NCBI GenBank assembly: GCA_903937385.1
Contig: CAIZZF010000008.1
Coordinates: 62,001 to 126,000 of the forward strand
Direction: 5' to 3'
Length of the DNA: 64,000 bases
Origin: an uncultured Holophagaceae bacterium
GTDB taxonomy: Bacteria; Acidobacteriota; Holophagae; Holophagales; Holophagaceae
Part shown: positions 1-34,480 of the stretch, piece by piece
Position numbering within the stretch: the first letter of the stretch is position 1
Layout: every line of letters starts with the position of its first letter
Translations under genes and position numbers: made by a program
The notes under the pieces: model-generated
What the model was told of the DNA's origin: nothing
Databases searched by the model: none
The model's input: the letters and a program-made list of their open reading frames with translations, nothing else

Positions 1-3000
1 GAAGCCAGCGGCAGAGGCGTGCGGTTCGGGTCGTTGGGATCGTAGGGCAGCGGCAGGCTGGCGATGCCGTCCGCCAGCGGCGTACCACTGGTTACGACTC
101 CGTTGACCAGGTTCTGGTAGAAGGTGGTCACACCGCCGCCGACCGGAACAGGGTTCAGGCCACTGTGGACAGCCACAGCGGGGTTGGCCAGTTCAGCGGT
201 GGTCTGCCAGGCCGGTGAGAGCTGGTAGGGATCCGTGACGCCTGCAGGGACCCGGAAGGCCTGCATGCTGAAGGCCGAGAAGGTGTCCCCATGGGTCAGG
301 GTGCCCGCCGTGTAGGTCGGGTAGTCCAGTACGAACCCGAGCTGGTCATGGGTGCCCGCACTAGTCGTCAGATCTGGTGTGGGCTCTGCGAGATCCTGGG
401 TCTTGCGGGTAATCAGCAGGGTCGGCCACTCGGCGAAGAGCTGGTAGGCCGGAATGCCGGTCAAGACACCGGCCGCGTTGCTGGACTGGATCCACTGGAA
501 GGCGCCCGTGGGATCCGTGGTGGGCACCGACAGGCGGTCGAGCCAGCGCTCATTGACGGGCGTGGTGCCGATGACCAGGTCGGTATAGCCGTTCAGCTTC
601 CGCTGGGCCGCGAGCGCCGCTTCGGCAGCGAAGCCCTGGGCGGTGACGATCTGCAGGGTCGGGTTGTAGGGGGCTGCACCATTCTGGAAGCTGAACCTGG
701 AGTCCGCCGCAGGGGTGGCCTCTAAGGAGGGATCGGCATAAACGCCCGTGGGAGCGTTGGGGATGCGCATCAGGTAGGTGGTCCCGTCAGCCGCCGAGAA
801 GCTGGGGATCTTGATGTAGAAGGGCAGGTCCGAGCGCACGGGGATGCTGACCGTGGCCTTGGCCCCGGTGAGCAGCGTCTGGTCCTGGACGTGGTAGGTG
901 TTGCTCTGGCCGTCCTGGAAGATCTGGACCGGGGCGCCCAGGCCGTTGATGGCCGTGGTCACCGGGGCCAGGGTTGAGGTTCCGTTGTTGTCGCTCTTCT
1001 GGCGGAATTGGAAGGAGAGGTTGAACTGCTGGGTATCCACACCGTCCACCACCACCTGTTTGGTGGCCGTGGCCTTTCGGCCAAAAGCGTCCGTCACGGT
1101 GTAGGTCACCGTCACAGCCGAGATGATCCCCTGCTGGCTGCTGTCGTTGAACAGCACATTGCCAGTGGGTGCGTCTCCAGTGAGCGTGAGCGGACTACCA
1201 TTCGGGAAGGACCAGACCTGGGAGACGAGGGGATCCTGGCTGCCCGGCAGGGTGGAGGTTCCCGCGAAGGCAAGCTGCCCACCCCAGGGGATGACGGTGT
1301 AGCCCGAAGCAACCCCGGAAGGAAGAGGGGCTGTCGGCGGTGCCCCGCTGGCCTGAGGCGTGATGATGCTGGCTGTCGGTGGCGCATTGTAGGTAACCGT
1401 CACCAGACGGGTCTGGGGAGTGGCCTGACTATTCGAAGAACGCCTGTCTGAAGCCGTGACCTGGATGGTGACGCTGGCGTGGGTCGAGGTGAAGGTATCG
1501 GGGTATGTGTAGGAGAGAGTCACAGGCACACCCGTCAGGGTGCTGGTTGTGGTGGTTCCCGTGCTGACCAGGGTGGGCGTCTGGTTCGGGATGTAGTTCC
1601 AGTCCACCGTGTACGTCACGGGATCGTTGTCCTGGTCGGTCAGGGTAAAGCCCAAGCTGAAGGGCTTGGAGGTCCAGGCCACGGTGTTGTCCGTGGCAGG
1701 GCTGGTCACGCTGATGGTCGGCGCATTGTTGGTGCCCATGGTCGTGATGGTCATGAGCGGCCCGGTGGCGGGGAGGCCCTGGATGCCGTAGGAGTCGGTG
1801 GCGTAGGCCGAAGGTGCCGAGGTGCGGGGACCTGCTGCAGCTGCGGAGTAGCGGACCGTGAAGGTGTAGCTTCCGCCGCCCTTGTTGACGGGGTTGGGCA
1901 GCACCGTGGCGGCGGCATCGTTGGCAGAGAAGCTGATGTTGCCGATGGGCAGCGGATCCGTGGCGCCACTGGCCTTCTGGGGGTTCGTGACCGAGATGTC
2001 GAAAGCCTGGTCCACATAGCTCCCGGCGGTCGAGTCCACGTTCTTGCTGGTGGTGCCGACGGGATTGAAGGTCACCACCGGCAGCGAGGAGACGACGGTG
2101 ACGGCCAGCGGCAGGGTCCAGTCGCAGACAGAGCCATAGCTGTCCACGGCACGTACCTTCACGGAGAAAGGACCGGCGGCGGCGAAGGCATGTTTGGCGG
2201 TGCCCGTCGTGGTCTTCTGGATCGCCGTGCCGTCGCCGAAGTCCCACTGGTACTGGGCGACGGAATCGCCAGCGTCGGGATCCGTGGCCGTGGCCGTGAA
2301 GTCATAGGATTTATTCTGGTACAGGTCCGATGCTGACTTGGAGGGCAGCGTCGGAATCACCGCCAGCGGGGTCACGATGACCGGCGGCCTGTTAGGAGCG
2401 ACCACAAAGGTCCTGGTCCAGGGAGTCACACCACCCTTGCCGTCGTCGGCCAGGAGCGTGACGACCGTGCTGCCCACGGCGGCAAAGGCGTGGGTGACCG
2501 GGTTCTCATCTTTGACGATGGGGGTCCCATCCCCGAAGTCCCAGGTCAGGGCGGGCACATCCTGATTGCTGTCGGTGACCTGGGCCGTGAAGGTGATGGG
2601 TACGCTCGCACGGGTGTTCAGGGAATTCGCACTGCCGAGCGGATCGATCCAGGTCACGGCCACGGCAGGCGGAGCGTTGGGCAGGATGTTGAGGTTCAAG
2701 GTGATGGACTTGATGCCGGTGCTGCCCCGCCCGTCGTTGGCGGTGAAGGTCACGGGATAGATGCCGGTCGCGGCATAAGTGTGCGACTGGGCCAGGGCCG
2801 TGGTCGCCTGCGTGGCCGCCACATCACCCTTGCCGCCATCCCCGAAGGTCCAGGTGAAGGTCAGCGTATCGCCATCGGAGTCCACGGCCGTCGCGGTGAA
2901 GGCGATGGGAACGTTCTGGTAGGTCGAGTTGGTGCCAGCCACAATCTGAGGCGTGGCCACCAGGGTGATGACCGGCGGATTGTCCACGGCCGCGACGGTC

Positions 3001-3764
3001 CGCACGGTGATGGCGGGCCCTGTCACCGAGGTGCTGCTCGCACCGTTGGAATCCACGACTTTCAAGGTCGGCGTGGCGGTCCGCGAGCCGAAGGCCGGGG
3101 CCGCGGGATAGGTGACGGTGATGTTCCAGTTGCCACTGCCGATGCTGGTGGGGGTGGTCTGGGTGGCTAGGGCATCACCGGGGTCCAGCTGGATGCCGCT
3201 GGCACTGACAGTCCCGGTTCCGGTATTCACGACGTTGACCGTGAAAGTCACGGAGACATTGCCGAGCAGGATCGAATTGACGGTGACCGCCGCGGCGGGC
3301 GTCACGAAGCTGACAGTGAGCGGAGTCGGTGCCGCGTTCACGGTGAGCGTCCGGGTGGCGGCCGTCGAGAGCAACCCGGCCGCGTTCTTGGCCACGACAC
3401 TCAGGGTGGGCGTGCCGCTGGCCAGGTAGGCATAGGTCGCCGTGGTGGTGGCCTTGCCGCCGGCCAGAACGACCGGGGTCGTCTTGGTGGTGCCGTCCCC
3501 GAAGTCCCAGCGGAACTCGGTGACGGACCCGCCGATGTTGGGATCCGTAGCGCTGGCCGAGAAGGTGTAGACCTTGTACTGGCTCAGGGCCGCGTCGTTA
3601 GGCGTCCAGCCCTCCAACGTGGCCGTGGGCGCAGTGCTCGTCTGGGGCAGCGTACCTCCGCTACTGGAGGAGCCGCCTCCGCCGCCACAAGCGACGAGAC
3701 TGAGGAGCCCCACAAAAATGCCCGCCAATAGAAGTGCGAGAGCACTGCGTTTCCCCTGATACAT
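1..3764 (-). CDS. Large PKD/Ig-like repeat surface lipoprotein (C-terminus beyond window)
   Basis: An open frame of about 1254 codons continues past position 1. The start ATG at 3764 has a GGAGAG ribosome-binding site. The N-terminus is basic (MYQGKR), then hydrophobic, then a lipobox LVAC followed by a poly-Gly/Ser linker, so it is a lipoprotein. The body holds at least four PKD-type repeats carrying the signature WDFGDGT or WTFGDG, separated by Ig-like beta-rich segments full of Thr, Val and Pro. The last roughly 300 visible residues lack PKD motifs and look like a separate globular domain. PKD proteins of this kind are usually adhesins, carbohydrate-binding scaffolds or surface-layer components. 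No catalytic motif is visible, so the exact role is unknown. An FNR-type box lies about 100 bp upstream of the start codon. Confidence 0.85.
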   Translation of the reverse strand, partial: MYQGKRSALALLLAGIFVGLLSLVACGGGGGSSSSGGTLPQTSTAPTATLEGWTPNDAALSQYKVYTFSASATDPNIGGSVTEFRWDFGDGTTKTTPVVLAGGKATTTATYAYLASGTPTLSVVAKNAAGLLSTAATRTLTVNAAPTPLTVSFVTPAAAVTVNSILLGNVSVTFTVNVVNTGTGTVSASGIQLDPGDALATQTTPTSIGSGNWNITVTYPAAPAFGSRTATPTLKVVDSNGASSTSVTGPAITVRTVAAVDNPPVITLVATPQIVAGTNSTYQNVPIAFTATAVDSDGDTLTFTWTFGDGGKGDVAATQATTALAQSHTYAATGIYPVTFTANDGRGSTGIKSITLNLNILPNAPPAVAVTWIDPLGSANSLNTRASVPITFTAQVTDSNQDVPALTWDFGDGTPIVKDENPVTHAFAAVGSTVVTLLADDGKGGVTPWTRTFVVAPNRPPVIVTPLAVIPTLPSKSASDLYQNKSYDFTATATDPDAGDSVAQYQWDFGDGTAIQKTTTGTAKHAFAAAGPFSVKVRAVDSYGSVCDWTLPLAVTVVSSLPVVTFNPVGTTSKNVDSTAGSYVDQAFDISVTNPQKASGATDPLPIGNISFSANDAAATVLPNPVNKGGGSYTFTVRYSAAAAGPRTSAPSAYATDSYGIQGLPATGPLMTITTMGTNNAPTISVTSPATDNTVAWTSKPFSLGFTLTDQDNDPVTYTVDWNYIPNQTPTLVSTGTTTTSTLTGVPVTLSYTYPDTFTSTHASVTIQVTASDRRSSNSQATPQTRLVTVTYNAPPTASIITPQASGAPPTAPLPSGVASGYTVIPWGGQLAFAGTSTLPGSQDPLVSQVWSFPNGSPLTLTGDAPTGNVLFNDSSQQGIISAVTVTYTVTDAFGRKATATKQVVVDGVDTQQFNLSFQFRQKSDNNGTSTLAPVTTAINGLGAPVQIFQDGQSNTYHVQDQTLLTGAKATVSIPVRSDLPFYIKIPSFSAADGTTYLMRIPNAPTGVYADPSLEATPAADSRFSFQNGAAPYNPTLQIVTAQGFAAEAALAAQRKLNGYTDLVIGTTPVNERWLDRLSVPTTDPTGAFQWIQSSNAAGVLTGIPAYQLFAEWPTLLITRKTQDLAEPTPDLTTSAGTHDQLGFVLDYPTYTAGTLTHGDTFSAFSMQAFRVPAGVTDPYQLSPAWQTTAELANPAVAVHSGLNPVPVGGGVTTFYQNLVNGVVTSGTPLADGIASLPLPYDPNDPNRTPLPLA

Positions 3765-3855
3765 AAACCACTCTCCGGGAAGGGAATATCGTAAATTACC
3801 TTGAGACCACATGATGAAAATAGCCAGAGAAGACTAGCGATGCGGCAAATACGTA

Positions 3856-3869
3856 TTGATTTTGATCAA
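3856..3869 (-). promoter_or_regulatory. FNR/CRP-type operator (perfect TTGAT-N4-ATCAA)
   Basis: The palindrome TTGATTTTGATCAA matches the FNR consensus exactly. It lies upstream of the PKD lipoprotein gene. A possible -10 (TAGTCT, 3836-3831 on the minus strand) would place the box centre about 40 bp before the transcription start, the class II activator position. The rest of the gap 3765-4027 shows no gene. Confidence 0.55.
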
Positions 3870-4027
3870 ATTTTCTCCATCAAATTCCATCCTCATCGGC
3901 TGATTCAGGATAGAGAAACCTTCGGCTTGCCCCACCGGTTGTCGAGGTTTTTCGGCAGGTCCAGCCCAAGGGATAAGTCCCGGGTGCGGGGTCAGCTTAG
4001 AAAAAACATTCACCCATGGAGCCATGC

Positions 4028-5347
4028 CTAGCTCTCCCGGATGATCCGGGCCAGGAGGAAGGCCATCTCGAGGCTCTGGCTCCGGTTCAGGCGGGGGTCG
4101 CAGCCGCTCTTGTAGGCGCGCTGGAGGTCCGCCTCGGCCAGGCCCTCGACCCCGCCGGTGCACTCGGTGACCGGCTCGCCGGTCAGCTCGAAGTGCACGG
4201 CGCCCAGGCGGGAGCCCAGGCGGCGGTGGATCTCGGCAACTTCCTGCAGTTCCAGGAGGATGTCCCCGAAGGCGCGGGTCTTCAGGCCCGAGGGGGTCTG
4301 GGTGCCGTTGCCATGCATGGGGTCGCTGCTCCAGAGCACGGGGTGACCCTCGGCCCGGGCGGCCTCGATGAGAGCCGGCAGCACCGCTTCGGCGCGACCG
4401 GCGCCGAAGCGGGTGATCAGGGTCAGGCGGCCGGACTGCCGGTGGGGATCGAGCAGGGCCAGCACCTTCTTCAGCTCCTCTGGCTTCATGGAGGCGCCGA
4501 CCTTGAGGCCGATGGGGTTGGCGAGGCCGCGGATGTACTCCAGGTGGGCGCCGTCCAGCTGCCGGGTGCGCTCGCCGATCCAGAGGAAGTGGGCGCCCAG
4601 GTTGTAGAAGGCCTCCTGCTCCGGGACCCAGCGGGTCAGGGCGGTCTCGAAGGGCAGGTGCAGGGCCTCGTGGCTGGTGAACAGCTCACCGGTGCGGAGG
4701 TTCTCGGGCAGGCCGCCCAGGCGCTGTACGAAGTCCAGGGACGCCCGCACCTGATCCAGGGTCTCCAGGTAGTGGCCCGCGTCCTCACGGCTCCAGGGCA
4801 GGTCCCAGTGTTCGGGGTGGTGCAGGTCCGCGAAGCCGCCGTCCACCAGGGCCCGCAGGTGGTTGAGGGTGACCGCCGAGCGGTGGTAGGCCTGCAGCAG
4901 CCGCGCGGGGTCCGCCTCCCGCTGGTCCGGGCTGAGGCTGTTGATGAGGTCGCCCCGGTAGACCGGCACCTCGCGGCCATCCACCACCTCGGTGTTCCCA
5001 CTGCGGGGCTTGGCGTACTGGCCCGCGATGCGGCCCAGGTGGACAACCCCGGTGCGGCCGCCGTGGGTGATCAGCACGGACATCTGCAGCAGCACCCGGA
5101 GCTTGTCCTGGATGAGCCCGCCGCGGCAGTCTGCGAAGGCCTCGGCGCAGTCCCCGCCCTGCAGCAGGAAGCGCTTGCCCGAGGCGGCCTCGGCCAGCAG
5201 CACGCCCAGATGGTCGACCTCCTCGGCCACCACCAGGGGCGGCAGCTCGGCCAGCTCGGCCAGGGCGGCGCCCAGCGCCTCGGGATCGCGGTAGGTGGGC
5301 TGCTGGGCGGCGGGGCGCTGCTTCCAGGAATCGGGGGTCCAGTTCAT
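4028..5347 (-). CDS. 3-deoxy-7-phosphoheptulonate synthase, class II (DAHP synthase)
   Basis: This enzyme catalyses the first committed step of the shikimate pathway, phosphoenolpyruvate plus erythrose-4-phosphate to DAHP. The protein is about 439 residues, the normal class II (plant/AroA-II) length, and shows family hallmarks: the N-terminal SWKQRPAAQQPTY, the loop LQGGDCAEAF, VGASMKPEEL, and the metal-site region SDPMHGNGTQTPSGLKTR. The start at 5347 (MNWTPDSW) was chosen because the family normally begins there and AAGGAAG precedes it. A longer start at 5404 would overlap the pheA stop as ATGA, so translational coupling is possible. It follows pheA in the same operon and should therefore share the Phe attenuator upstream. 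Confidence 0.93.
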   Translation of the reverse strand: MNWTPDSWKQRPAAQQPTYRDPEALGAALAELAELPPLVVAEEVDHLGVLLAEAASGKRFLLQGGDCAEAFADCRGGLIQDKLRVLLQMSVLITHGGRTGVVHLGRIAGQYAKPRSGNTEVVDGREVPVYRGDLINSLSPDQREADPARLLQAYHRSAVTLNHLRALVDGGFADLHHPEHWDLPWSREDAGHYLETLDQVRASLDFVQRLGGLPENLRTGELFTSHEALHLPFETALTRWVPEQEAFYNLGAHFLWIGERTRQLDGAHLEYIRGLANPIGLKVGASMKPEELKKVLALLDPHRQSGRLTLITRFGAGRAEAVLPALIEAARAEGHPVLWSSDPMHGNGTQTPSGLKTRAFGDILLELQEVAEIHRRLGSRLGAVHFELTGEPVTECTGGVEGLAEADLQRAYKSGCDPRLNRSQSLEMAFLLARIIRES

Positions 5348-5400
5348 GGCGGGCTTCCTTGACGTGGCGGGGTGGCGGGGACGGGGGGCGCTGCTCAGAT

Positions 5401-6495
5401 TCATAGGGACGCCTGGGGGTAGCTGCCCAGGACCTTGAGGGAGGCGCAGACGCTGCGCAGCTCCACCAGGACCTCGGCCATGGCCGGGTCGGCCTCGTGG
5501 CCCTCCACGTCCAGGAAGAAGGCGTATTCCCAGAGCTTCCGGCGGGTGGGCCGGCTCTGGATGCGGCTCAGGTTCAGGCCGCGTTGGGCCAGTGGCTCCA
5601 GCAGGTGCAGCAGGGCGCCGGGACCATCCTGGGCCAGGGCCAGCAGGGTGGTGCGGTCCCGACCCGTGGGCTCGGAGCCCTTGGGGCCCAGCACCACGAA
5701 GCGGGTGGCATTGGCCGCCAGGTCCTGGATCTGGGTCTCAGCGACCTTGAGGCCGAAGAGGTCCGCGGCCAGCTCCGAGGCCACGGCGGCCCCCTCGGCG
5801 TCCTCCCGGGCCAGACGCGCGGCCTCGGAAGTGGAGGGCGCCTCGATGCGGTCCGCGTGTGCGAGGTGCGTCTCCAGCCAGCCCCGGCACTGGCTCAGGG
5901 CCTGGGGATGGGAGTAGACCCGGCGCACGGCGCTCAGGTCCAGGTCGGACCGCACCAGCAGGGCCTGGTCCACGGGCAGCAGGATCTCGGCGCAGATGCG
6001 GAGCGGGCTCTCCAGGAACGCGTCCAGGGTGGACTCCACGGCGCCCTCGGTGGCGTTCTCCACGGGCACCACGCCGTAGTCCGCCCGCTGGCGCTCCACG
6101 GCCTGGAACACCGCCCCGATGGTCCCCAGGGGCAGGGCCTGGCTGGAGCCCCCGAACTGCTGGCGCGCGGCCAGGTGGGTGAAGGTGCCCTCGGGGCCGA
6201 GGAAGGCCACCCGCAGAGGCTTCTCCAGGCTCAGACAGGCGCTCATGACCTCCTGGAACACGTTGCGCACCGCCGCCGAGGGGAAGGGCCCGGGGTTGGC
6301 GGCCACCATGCGGGCCAGCACCTCCCGCTCCCGCCGGGGCACGTGGAAGAGCGCCTCGGGCGAGGCCGCCGTCTTGATGCGGCCCACCTCCGAGGCGAGC
6401 TTTGCCCGCTGGTTGAGGAGCGCCAGCAGCTGGTCATCGACGGCATCGATGGCCTGCCGGAGGCCGGCGAGGTGTGAGGGGTCGGGCTGGGTCAT
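5401..6495 (-). CDS. pheA: Bifunctional chorismate mutase / prephenate dehydratase (P-protein)
   Basis: It converts chorismate to prephenate and then phenylpyruvate for phenylalanine synthesis. About 364 residues comprise an AroQ-type chorismate mutase (about 1-90, LRQAIDAVDDQLLALLNQRAKLA), a prephenate dehydratase domain (about 95-275, FLGPEGTFTHLAA and the NATRF catalytic motif), and a C-terminal ACT domain (about 285-360, GALLHLLEPLAQRGLNLSRIQSRP) that normally binds Phe for feedback inhibition. The ATG at 6495 has GGGGA just upstream; a TTG four codons earlier is less likely. The gene is preceded by a Phe-rich leader peptide and an attenuator hairpin, and its stop overlaps a possible DAHP synthase start. 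Confidence 0.95.
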   Translation of the reverse strand: MTQPDPSHLAGLRQAIDAVDDQLLALLNQRAKLASEVGRIKTAASPEALFHVPRREREVLARMVAANPGPFPSAAVRNVFQEVMSACLSLEKPLRVAFLGPEGTFTHLAARQQFGGSSQALPLGTIGAVFQAVERQRADYGVVPVENATEGAVESTLDAFLESPLRICAEILLPVDQALLVRSDLDLSAVRRVYSHPQALSQCRGWLETHLAHADRIEAPSTSEAARLAREDAEGAAVASELAADLFGLKVAETQIQDLAANATRFVVLGPKGSEPTGRDRTTLLALAQDGPGALLHLLEPLAQRGLNLSRIQSRPTRRKLWEYAFFLDVEGHEADPAMAEVLVELRSVCASLKVLGSYPQASL

Positions 6496-6505
6496 GGGAG
6501 TCCCC

Positions 6506-6540
6506 AAACGAAAGCCCCCGAGCCGGTTGGACTCGGGGGC
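6506..6540 (-). terminator. Attenuator terminator of the pheA operon
   Basis: On the minus strand, arms GCCCCCGAG (6540-6532) and CTCGGGGGC (6522-6514) form a 9-bp stem followed by TTTCGTTT, 11 nt before the pheA start. The 3' arm is 8/9 identical to leader segment 6590-6582 (CTCGGGTGC). That segment can therefore pair with the 5' arm instead and abolish the terminator. Confidence 0.75.
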
Positions 6541-6562
6541 GAAGGCGGAAGCGGGTTTGATT

Positions 6563-6631
6563 CTAGACGCCGCTCAGCCTCGCACCCGAGGTGCGAAAGC
6601 TAAAAAAGAAGAAGCGGCGGGAGGTGGACAT
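6563..6631 (-). CDS. pheL: Phe leader peptide of the pheA attenuator
   Basis: A 22-codon ORF begins with ATG at 6631 and ends with TAG at 6563. Residues 7-12 read FFFFSF, five Phe in six codons, which is the hallmark of a phenylalanine attenuation peptide. A small hairpin (CGCACC/GGTGCG, 6595-6581) overlaps the codons just after the Phe run. Ribosome stalling on the Phe codons would free 6590-6582 to pair with 6540-6532 (antiterminator). Rapid translation would allow the terminator to form. The ribosome-binding site is weak (GGAAC). Function is inferred from the codon run and the mutually exclusive stems, both seen directly. Confidence 0.8.
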   Translation of the reverse strand: MSTSRRFFFFSFRTSGARLSGV

Positions 6632-6691
6632 GGCGGTTCCAACACTTTGCCGGAATCCGCACGTCCCTGCAAGGCTTAGGAGCCGGAAGAC

Positions 6692-7138
6692 CTAGGCTCC
6701 GAGGTGCTGGAAGACCTCGGCCAGACAGGCGGCCCAGGTCTCGTCCGGGGTCTCTTCCAGGAAGAACTCCACCGCATGGCCCGCGGGACGGGCCTCCAGG
6801 TGCAGGGACCAGGTCTCGAACAGGGCGTCCAGGGGGGCCGAGTCCAGGGGGTTGTGGCGGAACTTGTGGGACTTGCGGGCCCGGTCCACATCGGGGCCGC
6901 GGAGGCAGACCCCCTCCCGGCGGGTGGCCACGAAGGTGAAGGCCTGCACCCACTTGCCGTCCATGAACTGGTTGAAGTGCAGGTAGGCGCCGTGGAGGCT
7001 CCGGGAGAAGTCCAGCACCCGCTTCTTGCCGGTCCACTTCGCGGTCCAGAGCGTAAGGATCGCCTCCAGACGCGCCCGCTCCGAAGGGTGCTTCAGGCAG
7101 CCTTGGGCATAGGGCAGAAAGTCATCGAGCTGTTCCAA
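6692..7138 (-). CDS. Conserved hypothetical protein
   Basis: I do not recognise this protein. The frame is open from an ATG at 7195, which has no ribosome-binding site. A TTG at 7138 has an ideal GGAGG 7 nt upstream and is preferred, giving about 148 residues starting LEQLDDFLPYAQGCLKHP. The protein is soluble with no signal peptide. It is rich in charged and aromatic residues (WTAKWTGKKRVLDFSRSLHGAYLHFNQFMDGKWVQ is split by several basic runs) and has a C-terminus ETPDETWAACLAEVFQHLGA. It lies immediately upstream of the pheL-pheA-DAHP synthase operon on the same strand and diverges from the histidine kinase gene. Confidence 0.6.
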   Translation of the reverse strand: MEQLDDFLPYAQGCLKHPSERARLEAILTLWTAKWTGKKRVLDFSRSLHGAYLHFNQFMDGKWVQAFTFVATRREGVCLRGPDVDRARKSHKFRHNPLDSAPLDALFETWSLHLEARPAGHAVEFFLEETPDETWAACLAEVFQHLGA

Positions 7139-7238
7139 GGTCCGGCCTCCGGGGTGCTCCAGCCTACCGCAGCGCGGCGGGGGACCGGGGGGCATCCAAC
7201 AAAGATGTCGCTACCATGAGCGCAGCCCAGAGAACCCC

Positions 7239-9989: not shown

Positions 9990-12767
9990 ATGTCCAACTC
10001 TGCCCCGAAGTTGATCAGCTCTGGCAACCTGCCGACGCCCAACTGGCACGCCACACACGAAGAAGCCCTGGGCCGTCTGACCCGGATGTCCGAAGCCCTG
10101 GTCGCCAGCGACTGGACGGGTGTGGACGCCGGCGCCAAGTGGATCTACGAGGTGCTTCGACCCCACAACGAGGCTGAGGAGCGCGAGCTCTTCCCGCTGC
10201 TGGAGGAGATCGGCGCCGAGTCCCTGCTGCAGCGCCTCTTCGAGGACCACCGGCAGATGTGGGACCTGACCCTGCAGCTGCTGGCCGAGATCAATGAGGG
10301 CCAGGTCCGTGCGCCCCGCTCGCTGACCCTGCTGGGCCAGCGGCTGGTGGACCTGATCCGCGACCACATCGAGGCCGAGGACTACCTCATGCTGCCCCTG
10401 CTCAAGGGCAAGTCGCTCTATGCCTCCGATGCGGAGACCCAGGACGGCTACCTGATCCTGGAGAAGAAGCTCATCGCCCCGGAGACCTGGTCCTTCATCG
10501 TCCAGGCCCCCCAGGTGGCCCGCGGCCGCAAGCCGGGCCAGTTCTTCATGGTCGCGCCCTTCCCCGAGAGTGAGCGCATCCCCCTCACCCTGGCCGGTGG
10601 CGACGCGCGCAAGGGCTACATCCACTTCATCATGCAGGAAGTCGGCGCCACCACCCAGGCCATGGGCAAGCTCAGCGCCGGCGACCGCCTCTACGCCGTG
10701 GCCGGTCCCATGGGCACCCCCACCGAGATCGTCGAGGAAGGCACCATCGTGCTGATGGCGGGCGGCTACGGTTCCGCTGCCATCCTGCCTGCGGCCGAGG
10801 AGCTCCACGCCCAGGGCCGCCGCGTCATCACCATCCTCGGCGGCCGCAGCAAGGAGCGCGTGCTGCTGGCCGACGAACTGGGCGCGGCTTCGGCCGAGCT
10901 CATCGTCACCACCGATGACGGCACCCTGGGCCGCCAGGGCCTGGTCACCGACGCCCTCAAGGACATCATCGCCCGGGAGCCCGTCGCCCAGGTGGTCGCC
11001 GTGGGCCCCCTGCCCATGATGCGCGCCGTGGCCGACCTGACGAAGCCCCACGAGATCTTCACCCTGGTGAGCCTCAACGCCCTGATGGTCGACGGCACCG
11101 GCATGTGCGGCGGCTGCCGCGTCTCCGTGGGCGGCCAGACCAAGTTCGCCTGCTTCGACGGCCCGGACTTCGACGGCCACAAGGTGGACTTCAACATGCT
11201 GCGCATGCGGCAGGACTGGTACAAGTCCGAAGAGAAGGACATCTGCAGCCCCGAGGACTGCAAGATCGGCCGCGTGGCCGCCACCGGCCCCGTCGACTAC
11301 TCGCAGTACCTGAACGAGCCCGTCACCGACCTCGACTGGAAGAACCTGGACCTGGGCACCATCAAGCCCAGCCAGAAGATGAAGATCCCCCGTCAGGCCA
11401 TGGCCTGCCAGCCGCCCGAGCTGCGCGTCTGCAACTTCGACGAGGTCAGCCTCGGCCTGTCGGCCGAACAGGCCAAGCTGGAAGCCGCCCGCTGCATCAT
11501 GTGCAAGCACCCCGCCTGCATCGACGGCTGCCCCGTCAGCATCGACATCCCGGCCTTCCTCATGGAGATCGTCAAGGGCGATCCCCAGGGCGCCGCCCGC
11601 GTCATCAAGCAGAGCTCGCCCCTGGGTTCGGTCTGCGGCCGGGTCTGCCCCCAGGAGAAGCAGTGCGAGATCAAGTGCGTCATCGGCATCAAGGGTGAGC
11701 CCGTCTCCATCGGCCGCCTCGAGCGCTTCGCCGCGGACTCCATGCTCGGCTCCACCGAGCTGCCGCCCGTCGAGGCCGCCACGGGCAAGAAAGTGGCCGT
11801 CATCGGCGCGGGCCCCGCGGGCCTCACCGTCGCCGGCGAGCTCATCAAGAAGGGCCACCAGGTCACGGTCTACGACGCCCTGCACAAGCCGGGCGGCGTG
11901 ATGCTCTACGGCATCCCCGAGTTCCGCCTGCCCAACAAGATCGTGGACACGGAAGTGGACACCCTCCGGCGCCTGGGCGTGAAGTTCGTCATGAACACCC
12001 TGATCGGCCGCAGCATGACCCTGGATGACCTGCGCAAGGAGAACGACGCCATCTTCATGGGCACTGGCGCTGGCCTGCCGAAGATGATGGGCATCGCCGG
12101 CGAGGAGTTCAAGGGCGTCTACACCGCCAACGAGTTCCTCACCCGCATCAACCTCATGCGCGCCGACCTGTTCCCGGAATACAGCACCCCGGTGACCATC
12201 GGCAAGCACGTCATCATCGTGGGCGCCGGCAACACCGCCATGGACGCCGCCCGCGCCGCCCGCCGCATGGGCGCCGAGCACGTGACGGTGGTCTACCGCC
12301 GCACCATCAAGGAGTCCACGGCCCGCGGCGAAGAGCTCGAGCACGCCCACGAGGAGGGCGTCGAGTTCAAGTTCCTCACCACCCCCGTGCAGCTCCACGG
12401 CAACGAGAAGGGCTGGATGACCCACGCCGAGTGCGCCGTGATGGAGCTGGGCGAGCCCGGTCCCGACGGCCGCCGTAGCCCCAAGATGACCGACGAGCGC
12501 ATCATGATCCCCTGCGAGACCCTGGTGGTCGCGCTGGGCTTCGATGTGAACCCGCTCATCGCCATGACCGAGAAGGGCCTGCGGACCCTCAAGGGCGGCG
12601 TCGTGGTGGTCAACGAAGAGACCGGCGAGACCTCCCTGCCCGGCGTCTATGCCGGCGGCGATGTCATCACCGGTGGCGCCACCGTCATCCTGGCCATGGG
12701 CCAGGGCCGCCGGGCCGCGGGAGCCATCCACGAGCGCCTCATGGGCGCCGCGGTGTCCAGCTCCTGA
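9990..12767 (+). CDS. Hemerythrin-NfnA-NfnB fusion (ferredoxin/NAD(P)H transhydrogenase-like)
   Basis: About 925 residues; the start at 9990 has GGAGG 5 nt upstream. Residues 1-140 are a hemerythrin HHE domain with the expected ligands H23, H59, E63, H87, H126 and E130. Residues about 150-430 match NfnA/SudB, with FAD/NAD-binding regions and a [2Fe-2S] site DGTGMCGGC plus a downstream FACFDG. Residues about 450-920 match NfnB/SudA (GltD-like), with two cysteine clusters (CIMCKHPACIDGCP and CGRVCPQEKQCEIKC), VIGAGPAGLTVAGEL, IIVGAGNTAMDAARAA, and the C-terminal GVYAGGDVITGGATVILAMGQGR. NfnAB bifurcates electrons between NADPH and ferredoxin plus NAD+. Adjacency to nifJ fits that role. The hemerythrin may sense or scavenge O2 or NO (inference). 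Confidence 0.88.
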   Translation: MSNSAPKLISSGNLPTPNWHATHEEALGRLTRMSEALVASDWTGVDAGAKWIYEVLRPHNEAEERELFPLLEEIGAESLLQRLFEDHRQMWDLTLQLLAEINEGQVRAPRSLTLLGQRLVDLIRDHIEAEDYLMLPLLKGKSLYASDAETQDGYLILEKKLIAPETWSFIVQAPQVARGRKPGQFFMVAPFPESERIPLTLAGGDARKGYIHFIMQEVGATTQAMGKLSAGDRLYAVAGPMGTPTEIVEEGTIVLMAGGYGSAAILPAAEELHAQGRRVITILGGRSKERVLLADELGAASAELIVTTDDGTLGRQGLVTDALKDIIAREPVAQVVAVGPLPMMRAVADLTKPHEIFTLVSLNALMVDGTGMCGGCRVSVGGQTKFACFDGPDFDGHKVDFNMLRMRQDWYKSEEKDICSPEDCKIGRVAATGPVDYSQYLNEPVTDLDWKNLDLGTIKPSQKMKIPRQAMACQPPELRVCNFDEVSLGLSAEQAKLEAARCIMCKHPACIDGCPVSIDIPAFLMEIVKGDPQGAARVIKQSSPLGSVCGRVCPQEKQCEIKCVIGIKGEPVSIGRLERFAADSMLGSTELPPVEAATGKKVAVIGAGPAGLTVAGELIKKGHQVTVYDALHKPGGVMLYGIPEFRLPNKIVDTEVDTLRRLGVKFVMNTLIGRSMTLDDLRKENDAIFMGTGAGLPKMMGIAGEEFKGVYTANEFLTRINLMRADLFPEYSTPVTIGKHVIIVGAGNTAMDAARAARRMGAEHVTVVYRRTIKESTARGEELEHAHEEGVEFKFLTTPVQLHGNEKGWMTHAECAVMELGEPGPDGRRSPKMTDERIMIPCETLVVALGFDVNPLIAMTEKGLRTLKGGVVVVNEETGETSLPGVYAGGDVITGGATVILAMGQGRRAAGAIHERLMGAAVSSS

Positions 12768-21193: not shown

Positions 21194-22575
21194 CACTGGC
21201 CTCCCTTCTTGCCTAGCCCGAACCGATACTCGGCCTTCAGCAGTCCGCGCGTCTCGCGCTTGCTCACGGGGTTGCTGCCGTAGCTGAGGTCGCCCGAGAC
21301 CTTCAGGCTCGCAGTGGCCTGATAGCCCAGGGACCCCACGGTCTCATACACGGTCCGCAGCCCTGCGACGTAGGGGTTGCTGCTGTCGTAGTACTGGACG
21401 ATGCCATCCAGGCTCGCGGAGAGCTTGCCCTTGTTGACCAGCACCCAGGCCCGGGCTTCCTTGTGGCTGAGGCTGCGGTAGGGCGTCAGGGGGTCCACGC
21501 GCTTCACGTCCCCCACGCTCACCCAGTGGGCGCCCACACCAGCCAGGACGGTCTTCTCGAGGAAGTCTATGCGCACATCGGCGCCGGCGCGGTTGGCATC
21601 CCCATAGGACTCGCGATGGGTGCGACGGTAGTCCGCCACCACCTGGATCGAACCCGTCGCGGACCAGGTGACCTTGCCGCCCGTGGCCTTGAACAGGTCG
21701 CGCTCATCCTGCCGGAACAGCGAGGGGAGGTTGGTCCCCGCGAAGTAGGCGAAGAAGTTGCGCTCGACATAGTTGCCGGACACCGCGACCGCGCCGCCCA
21801 GCTTCACGCTGGCCGTGTAGTCGTGCTCCGCCACCTTGGAGGGCTCGGCCGTCCCTGCGGCGGGGGCCCGGTGGCTGGCCACGTCGAAGACCGTGCGGCC
21901 CCGGAAGTCAAAGACCGTGGTCGGCGTCACCGCCAGATCCACGCCCAGCTGCTTGCGGCTGTAGTCCGTCGCTGAAGGGATGGCCAGGTCCTTGGCGGCC
22001 TTGGCGCCGTCCTGCAGGTAGGAGACACCGAGCTCCAGGCCCTTGGTAGAGCGCCAGCCCAGCCGGGAGCCGAAGATCACATCCCGCTGGAATTTGTAGT
22101 CTGCCTGGGCCAAGGGCGTGACCGTCCGGTAGAGCACCGGCAGCCCGTAGAAGCCGGACAGCGTGAAGCCGCCGCGCAGGTCGGTGCGGGCGCTGACGCC
22201 ATCCACCTGCTCGAAGCCCGTGCCCTGGTTCACCGCGAACCGGCCCGCCTTGAGCTCGGCATTGGCCTTGTCGAACTGATACTGCAGGTAGCCATAGGTC
22301 AGGTAGCCGCCGCTCTTGGTGCCATCCAGCACCGAGGAGTCGCCCAGGTCCGAGCGCCCCCAGCCGAACAGGTGCAGCGACAGCTTGTCGATGCCCAGCT
22401 TCGTAGCGTCGATGCCCAGGTATTGGGTGGCCGGGGTGTAGGTGGCCTTGTCGAAGCCCGGGGTCTCCTGCTTCCACATCTGGGCGATGGTGATGCCCTG
22501 GACGCTGATCTCCTGGGACCACCCGGTGGTGGCCACCAGGGCGGTGAACAGGGCGATATTGGTGCGCTGCTTCAT
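21193..22575 (-). CDS. Outer-membrane beta-barrel porin partnered with multiheme cytochromes
   Basis: About 460 residues; start ATG 22575 has GGGGGAGG upstream. A Sec signal (MKQRTNIALFTALVATTGWSQ) precedes a long series of amphipathic, aromatic-flanked beta strands (GYLTYGYLQYQF, LELGVSYLQDGA, KAEYRFGLG), typical of a 20-plus-strand barrel. It lacks the CXXC motif seen in the N-terminus of MtrB and is shorter than MtrB/PioB proteins (about 650-700). It may therefore be a different porin type used as a sheath for a porin-cytochrome conduit. It overlaps the pentaheme gene by one base. A small ORF ends on its start codon. Confidence 0.8.
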   Translation of the reverse strand: MKQRTNIALFTALVATTGWSQEISVQGITIAQMWKQETPGFDKATYTPATQYLGIDATKLGIDKLSLHLFGWGRSDLGDSSVLDGTKSGGYLTYGYLQYQFDKANAELKAGRFAVNQGTGFEQVDGVSARTDLRGGFTLSGFYGLPVLYRTVTPLAQADYKFQRDVIFGSRLGWRSTKGLELGVSYLQDGAKAAKDLAIPSATDYSRKQLGVDLAVTPTTVFDFRGRTVFDVASHRAPAAGTAEPSKVAEHDYTASVKLGGAVAVSGNYVERNFFAYFAGTNLPSLFRQDERDLFKATGGKVTWSATGSIQVVADYRRTHRESYGDANRAGADVRIDFLEKTVLAGVGAHWVSVGDVKRVDPLTPYRSLSHKEARAWVLVNKGKLSASLDGIVQYYDSSNPYVAGLRTVYETVGSLGYQATASLKVSGDLSYGSNPVSKRETRGLLKAEYRFGLGKKGGQ

Positions 22576-34407: not shown

Positions 34408-34480
34408 GTGGGCGTACCAGGATTCGAACCTGGGACTTCTACCGTGTGAAGGTAGCACTCTACCGCTGAGTTATACGCCC
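34406..34480 (-). tRNA. tRNA-Val (anticodon CAC)
   Basis: The cloverleaf is complete: acceptor GGGCGTA/TACGCCC, D-loop AACTCAGCGGTAGAGT, anticodon stem CTACC/GGTAG with loop TTCACAC (CAC, reads GTG), T-arm CCAGG-TTCGAAT-CCTGG, discriminator A, and an encoded CCA. Confidence 0.97.

Follow-up and report, generated by a model that had tools for sequence, protein, structure and literature searches.

Leader-peptide attenuation has been described mostly in Proteobacteria and Actinobacteria. In the alpha-proteobacterial trpL attenuators the transcript is leaderless and the ORF starts at or near its 5' end, and in Firmicutes T-boxes and riboswitches attenuate the transcription of amino-acid genes according to tRNA or metabolite state. 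We know of no Asn-codon attenuator that has been described, and a limited search of the open-access literature found neither such an attenuator of asnB or asparagine synthetase nor leader-peptide attenuation of pyrroline-5-carboxylate reductase. A 2010 survey predicted attenuators in Acidobacteria, almost none of them with an assigned function, and according to the accessible part of its text leader peptides had, to its authors' knowledge at the time, been shown only in Proteobacteria and Actinobacteria (PMC2965389). In the available excerpts of two further sources, no Phe leader attenuator was found in Actinobacteria (PMC1262725), and phenylalanine, asparagine and proline go unnamed in a survey (PMC4833913); the excerpt of another places Pro-codon leaders at a Mg2+ transporter operon, a different use (PMC3641672).

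The element analyzed here resembles E. coli pheL-pheA in its Phe-rich leader peptide, its 1:2/2:3/3:4 logic, the P-protein gene that comes next and an energy profile of the same shape. Unlike in E. coli, where the leader stop precedes segment 2, the stop lies beyond segment 2, in the 2:3 loop, and the element also differs in having no Rfam match, a putative nearly leaderless start and a class II DAHP synthase gene after pheA. The leader ORF lies near the transcript 5' end suggested by a promoter-like motif, as in the leaderless trpL attenuators of alpha-proteobacteria, whereas its codons are Phe rather than Trp. In contrast to T-boxes and riboswitches, sensing would proceed via leader translation. 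Compared with the premature terminators of the 2010 survey, as its accessible text presents them, function, codons and pairing are assigned here, together with orthologues and amino-acid variants (PMC2965389).

The pheA locus

The locus (6505-6672, minus strand) lies in a window of 64,000 nucleotides, the whole stretch of DNA analyzed, from a 3.68-Mb genome of the Geothrix group (Holophagaceae, Acidobacteriota); the genus name Geothrix here is that of its named relatives. Geothrix is a soil bacterium. A preliminary description of the locus had reported a 22-codon ORF with a Phe run and a terminator stem followed by T-rich sequence; both are present, all of its coordinates are right (Table 1), and its position 6506 falls inside the T-rich tract, which is short. 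It had also proposed that segment 6590-6582 (CTCGGGTGC) forms the antiterminator. Eight of the nine bases are indeed as in the terminator 3' arm, but the pairing is not confined to nine bases, since folding extends it to about 21 pairs.

Table 1. Features of the pheA locus (window positions) and of three further leaders of the same genome (locus and contig positions)
Feature	Position	Strand	Description
Predicted promoter	6644..6672	-	TTGCAG 6672-6667, 17-bp spacer, CAAAGT 6649-6644; 12 nt 5' of leader ATG
Leader peptide ORF	6563..6631	-	MSTSRRFFFFSFRTSGARLSGV, then stop; 22 codons, ATG start; Phe at codons 7-10 and 12; orthologues in relatives
1:2 structure	6568..6619	-	6601-6590 with 6586-6576, extension 6619-6612 with 6575-6568; -28 kcal/mol (folding)
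2:3 antiterminator	6532..6590	-	6590-6567 with 6556-6532; ~21 pairs; -31 to -32 kcal/mol (folding)
3:4 terminator hairpin	6514..6540	-	core GCCCCCGAG (6540-6532)/CTCGGGGGC (6522-6514); at most 11 pairs; -24 kcal/mol
T-rich tract	6505..6513	-	TTTCGTTT; 3' of terminator; adjoins pheA ribosome-binding region
pheA, P-protein	5401..6495	-	chorismate mutase-prephenate dehydratase-ACT; PF01817 + PF00800 + PF01842; NCBIfam, Pfam
Class II DAHP synthase	4028..5404	-	Pfam 582.9 bits; NCBIfam 566.6 bits, under cut-off 614.7
Asn-codon leader and terminator 5' of asnB	L194:1345-1485; C12:37756-37897	+	MTTPLPRPNRNNNRLPRADRAWAGEGIS
Pro-codon leader and terminator 5' of proBA	L142/L216; C26:159190-159320	+	MTVSVSSDPRPSHPTPMVGSKGV
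Leu-codon leader and terminator 5' of leuA-like gene	L265; C12, upstream of 10757-12292	-	MSNTLSLNLLLALLLSGTGED

The start of the class II DAHP synthase gene and the stop of pheA overlap by 4 bases, and a gene of this class lies 3' of pheA in 25 of the 29 Geothrix-type loci; among the four misses, two loci end too soon (L006 and L013) and two have no such gene in the DNA covered (L007 and L023). In all 33 related leaders the ATG is preceded by a TTG box and, after a spacer of 16-18 nt, a weak -10 box; from the -10 box to the ATG there are 12 nt in 22 leaders, 13 nt in 7 and other distances in 4. The hexamers were selected with a simple score, and a few of the selections are poor. From the position of this promoter-like motif, the 5' UTR would be about 5 nt long and the transcript nearly leaderless; so short a 5' UTR would leave no room for a ribosome-binding site 5' of the leader ORF.

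No Rfam family matches the leader, at which the best match is radC (18.2 bits, gathering score 40), and no T-box or riboswitch model reaches its gathering score in the window. The single Rfam match of the window above gathering score is a tRNA gene (34409-34480, minus strand). At window positions 1-4000, long open frames overlap on both strands and no single gene stands out. When the window was scanned blindly for a leader ORF with a terminator and a residue cluster, the pheA leader was the single Phe match; several chance matches with other residues were also obtained, so the pattern in a single sequence is by itself no proof of an attenuator.

Alternative RNA structures

The RNA was folded from the ribosome leading edge, taken as 12 nt past the start of the A-site codon, to the end of arm 3. 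With the A-site at Phe codons 7-10 the window antiterminator forms 21 pairs at the energy given in Table 1; for codons 11-15 the values are -29, -22, -19, -14 and -8 kcal/mol, and by codon 18 only -1 is left. In all 34 leaders, likewise folded up to the terminator, an A-site at codons 7-10 gives -22 to -32 kcal/mol, followed by a collapse between codons 12 and 17. By folding, the last stall codon that permits the antiterminator falls in the Phe run, as it does in the E. coli pheL control, where the energy stays on a plateau across the Phe codons and then drops. By these computations, a stall at the regulatory codons would free segment 2 and a ribosome past them would not.

When segment 2 was shuffled, the antiterminator strength of the window leader was reached in 0 of 300 shuffles; among the 34 leaders, 7 had none as strong in 300 and 33 had at most 21, the antiterminator of L007 being no better than its shuffles (96/300). 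Mutually exclusive 1:2, 2:3 and 3:4 pairings are predicted in the window and related leaders, and a GC-rich hairpin followed by T's is found in 34/34. With no ribosome on the RNA, the 1:2 and 3:4 structures form in folding. Once arm 4 is included, 3:4 is the lowest-energy state whether the ribosome stalls or not, and read-through would therefore have to rest on kinetics, with 2:3 forming first.

Conservation in Geothrix and related genera

In the collection of named genomes, the relatives comprise Geothrix species together with other MAGs of the Holophagaceae. A leader with conserved Phe codons occurs in 29 of the 38 loci that encode PheA relatives (L001-L028 and L030, labeled Geothrix, Holophagaceae or, for L011, Acidobacteria); the nine leaderless loci belong to Nitrospirota, Deltaproteobacteria, an actinobacterium and L029, labeled only 'bacterium'. 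The leader set comprises 33 distinct leaders from loci L001-L068 and one from G001, which the pattern missed and which was found by eye; in this last leader (MTNPFRPFTSAFRTPGAEAGGV) the Phe codons are scattered, with one inside the six codons predicted from the fold. Sequence upstream of the leader varies among relatives and the leader remains.

Of the 47 genomes of the genus, the leader covariance model R1 matches 39, and in 38 of these the E value is at most 1.7e-32. PheA is encoded in 37 of the 47, and all 37 carry the leader; nine of the ten genomes without PheA also lack a strong R1 match. The exception is G011, with a strong leader match and no PheA match. At this locus (L134; G011 C82:27784-27906, plus strand) the Phe leader and terminator are kept, and the next ORF begins like pheA and then differs. 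Five genomes that are 87-99% complete (G009, G017, G019, G028 and G066) have neither PheA nor leader; these organisms are possibly Phe auxotrophs or users of other enzymes.

Among 396 genomes across the phylum, strong R1 matches are restricted to the genus and G169, of a sister genus; weaker ones outside the family (E 4e-5 to 8e-4) occur in G091, G264, G317, G318, G354 and G362. Diverged sister-genus leaders with Phe or Phe/Tyr codons lie 5' of pheA in G438 (MNLSLYSFSFFSFRASGAWAGGVLN), G426 (MAACRFSFFYFSFRTPGAGAALT) and G169 (MTSRALYFAFSYAPSGAWTGGASN), and the attenuator logic is retained in all three. No leader was found upstream of pheA in G343, G375 and G208 of sister genera.

The preliminary description had proposed looking among relatives for conserved Phe codons and stems and for compensatory changes in the stems. 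The Phe codons are kept in orthologous leaders and the alternative stems in 34/34 energy profiles; no compensatory changes were seen, and the stems are nearly invariant within the genus. In the genus alignment no covariation beyond shuffles was seen for 1:2, 2:3 or 3:4, where most pairs hardly vary. The pairs hold in 86.9% (1:2), 86.3% (2:3) and 91.7% (3:4) of cells, against 20-64% with partners slid by 1-3 columns, a comparison biased toward structure because the structure was drawn from one of the aligned sequences.

Leaders upstream of other amino-acid genes

Weak secondary R1 matches correspond to leaders 5' of other amino-acid genes. NCBIfam types these genes as proC, proB, asnB and ilvA; a further one encodes an AsnA-like enzyme, at 97.4 bits under a cut-off of 309. 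Genus gene searches covered proC, asnB and proB. Among 32 asnB upstream regions examined, from the 47 genomes, 31 carry an Asn leader and terminator, our genome included (Table 1). In the exception, G068 (L203; C1:1634082, plus strand), promoter-like sequence lies directly 5' of the gene with no Asn leader, as would follow from a clean leader loss. Sister-genus asnB leaders are MTFLLSNANNNRPPRVNRAWDGEILA (G375), LSHILQRQDNRNNNRPPRADRAWDGAGRP (G208, starting with TTG) and MTLQRFNLNNNRPLRADRAWDGEVLS (G343), the genes of G375 and G208 being typed by NCBIfam, and the AsnA-like gene of G169 has the leader MLKTSLTRQNNRNNANPSTDRAWGGEALV.

A Pro leader of the form (H/D)PRPS precedes proC in at least 14 of 33 upstream regions, and 11 have no terminator, including that of our genome, where proC has neither terminator nor leader; for proB a Pro leader is present in 15 of 26, our genome included, and no terminator in 9. 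The detector applied to these upstream regions selects whichever ORF has most of the target residue, so that single cases are inflated and the ORF taken is sometimes out of frame (G018 proC, for example). The Asn set is free of this bias because the Asn leaders align. A Leu-codon leader with a terminator precedes a second, leuA-like gene of our genome, which scores 191.5 bits, below the cut-off; the main leuA (G000:C1) has no leader. The ilvA-like leader MYCCPVFISMISIPHGG (L130) is weak, with no terminator passing the filter.

Leaders with aromatic codons also precede DAHP synthases of three types. For class I enzymes, of which two of seven genes were typed, leaders such as MTPRFHRYYWFPRADRAWHGEGPA and MSHRFTYPYWSPRADRAWRGQGPS were found in 6 of the 7 loci read. 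The class I leader of G061 (L296; C1:10233-10366, plus strand), MTRRLHHHYYRPSRADRAWSGQGLS, reads HHHYY against Phe/Tyr/Trp in relatives; His and Tyr codons are one base apart. The class II DAHP synthase of G382 has the leader MNILRTSFYYFGFRTSARVGGGLN. In sister genera, chorismate mutase-prephenate dehydratase-DAHP synthase fusions (G435, G351 and G430; L310, L311 and L312) follow leaders rich in Phe or Phe/Tyr, for example MTTTTFSFTYAYRYFIGGGRVRVGGALN in G435. The leader of G152 is MFYAFTCAAGRFYFGFGGGLGKAGA, with an untyped gene downstream.

Several candidates were rejected. Relaxed R1 gave five matches in our genome; among the three that were read, the pheA and proBA (E 0.1) leaders are real, and the match at window 21209-21324 shows neither leader nor terminator. 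Relaxed R2 gave three matches in our genome, the asnB leader being the convincing one, R2 matches outside the family (G177, G186, G200, G201, G298 and G397) have no such leader, and L136 (G024) was taken as a chance match. The pattern CCCCGA-N-TCGGGG occurs at nine places in our genome, three of which are the terminators of phe, asn and proBA; reading backward, as a control, gives more places (15), and the pattern is thus not diagnostic.

Position of the regulatory codons

In a joint test, the fold alone gave the last stall codon that permits the antiterminator, and the six codons up to this limit were scored for the residue expected from the next gene. For pheA, 110 of 210 scored codons are Phe versus 33 of 519 elsewhere (35 leaders). 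The expected residue is likewise concentrated for asnB (93/186 versus 24/656, 31 leaders), sister asnB (12/18 versus 1/60, 3 leaders), class I DAHP synthase (19/36 versus 12/103, 6 leaders), the fusions (9/24 versus 15/81, 4 leaders) and the leuA-like gene (5/6 versus 3/14, 1 leader), and, in a chosen subset of the leaders found, for proC (28/84 versus 15/215, 14 leaders) and proB (21/54 versus 19/142, 9 leaders). Because leaders of one type are relatives, the independent units of this test are the types. L300 and L130, missed by the terminator filter, are not part of it.

A per-leader rank test (22 leaders, 20 scored) shows the same trend, with a mean rank fraction of 0.25-0.31 over three footprints; G438 and G426, missed by the terminator filter, were folded separately. 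The exceptions are proB of G008 (1.00), pheA of G001 (0.69), proB of our genome (0.53) and the leuA-like gene, where the fold limit shifts with the threshold.

Proposed mechanism and alternatives

The ORF, the alternative pairings, their conservation, the codon position and the gene context make it highly probable that the element is a ribosome-mediated transcription attenuator sensing charged tRNA-Phe, of which the promoter, termination, stalling and a Phe response are the predicted parts. Transcription would start at a promoter just 5' of the leader, and the transcript, nearly leaderless, would have the Phe run in its first ORF. When Phe-tRNA is scarce, the ribosome would stall at codons 7-10 and cover segment 1; segment 2, left uncovered, would then pair with segment 3 as the antiterminator, and RNA polymerase would proceed into pheA and the DAHP synthase gene. 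When Phe-tRNA is ample, the ribosome would pass segment 2 to the stop, 1:2 would re-form behind it or segment 2 be covered, and 3:4 would form and transcription terminate. The pheL-pheA logic put forward in the preliminary description agrees with the alternative pairings, the codon position and the profile of the E. coli control, and Phe attenuation of a pheA-DAHP synthase operon in an Acidobacteriota genome is supported as the best reading of the sequence. Weighing against it are the lack of excess covariation in the genus, the L007 antiterminator, the scattered Phe codons of the G001 leader, the short T-tract, the need for read-through by kinetics and the leaderless pheA of G343, G375 and G208.

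Control could instead be translational: stalling would alter how accessible the pheA ribosome-binding site is, or translation would re-initiate from the leader into pheA. The T-tract is short and adjoins the pheA ribosome-binding region; nevertheless, the GGGGA/AGGAG region lies beyond the end of the 3:4 hairpin and takes no part in its pairing, and the hairpin with T's recurs in every leader of the set. Re-initiation has been argued for, according to the accessible part of a survey, from the characteristic short distances between Acidobacteria leader genes and the next gene (PMC4833913), whereas here over 60 nt separate the leader stop from the start of pheA. We consider translational control improbable.

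It is more improbable still that the hairpin serves only to terminate the gene upstream (6692-7195), with the Phe-rich ORF being incidental. That gene has the same orientation, and about 60 nt separate its end from the leader ATG, but a conserved promoter-like element lies between the two, and the leader stays in relatives whose upstream sequence differs and tracks PheA across the genus. Complementarity of segments 2 and 3 beyond that of shuffles, and regulatory codons that fit the next gene in several unrelated gene families, also argue against a terminator of this kind. Equally slight is the chance that the leader senses a general translation slow-down, or that its peptide works in trans, rather than Phe-tRNA supply. 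Trans-acting leader peptides exist, as the available excerpt on peTrpL describes (PMC7298713), and the peptide is conserved in its C-terminal half; this half, however, overlaps segment 2, so that its conservation is accounted for at the RNA level. A general slow-down is at odds with codon identity, which follows the pathway of the next gene.

A probable family of attenuators in Holophagaceae

The preliminary description saw the leader correctly but as an isolated one; several attenuators with different regulatory codons occur in this genome and family, and the pheA leader appears to be one member of a clade-wide set whose function is predicted from sequence. It seems likely that a single attenuator architecture serves Holophagaceae as a plug-in sensor, with codons swapped (Phe; Asn; Pro; Leu; Phe+Tyr; Phe+Tyr+Trp) before the enzyme making that amino acid, including different enzymes for one step (asnB and the AsnA-like enzyme; three DAHP synthase types). 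The pheA element is of a kind already known, and the novelty would lie in the Asn, Pro and mixed-aromatic sensors. If this is true, sensing through Asn or Pro codons at amino-acid biosynthesis genes would add new specificities to ribosome-mediated attenuation. The codon swap on a similar RNA frame would offer a handle on the origin of new attenuators, and this branch of Acidobacteriota would gain assigned sensors, which cultured Geothrix species allow to be tested.
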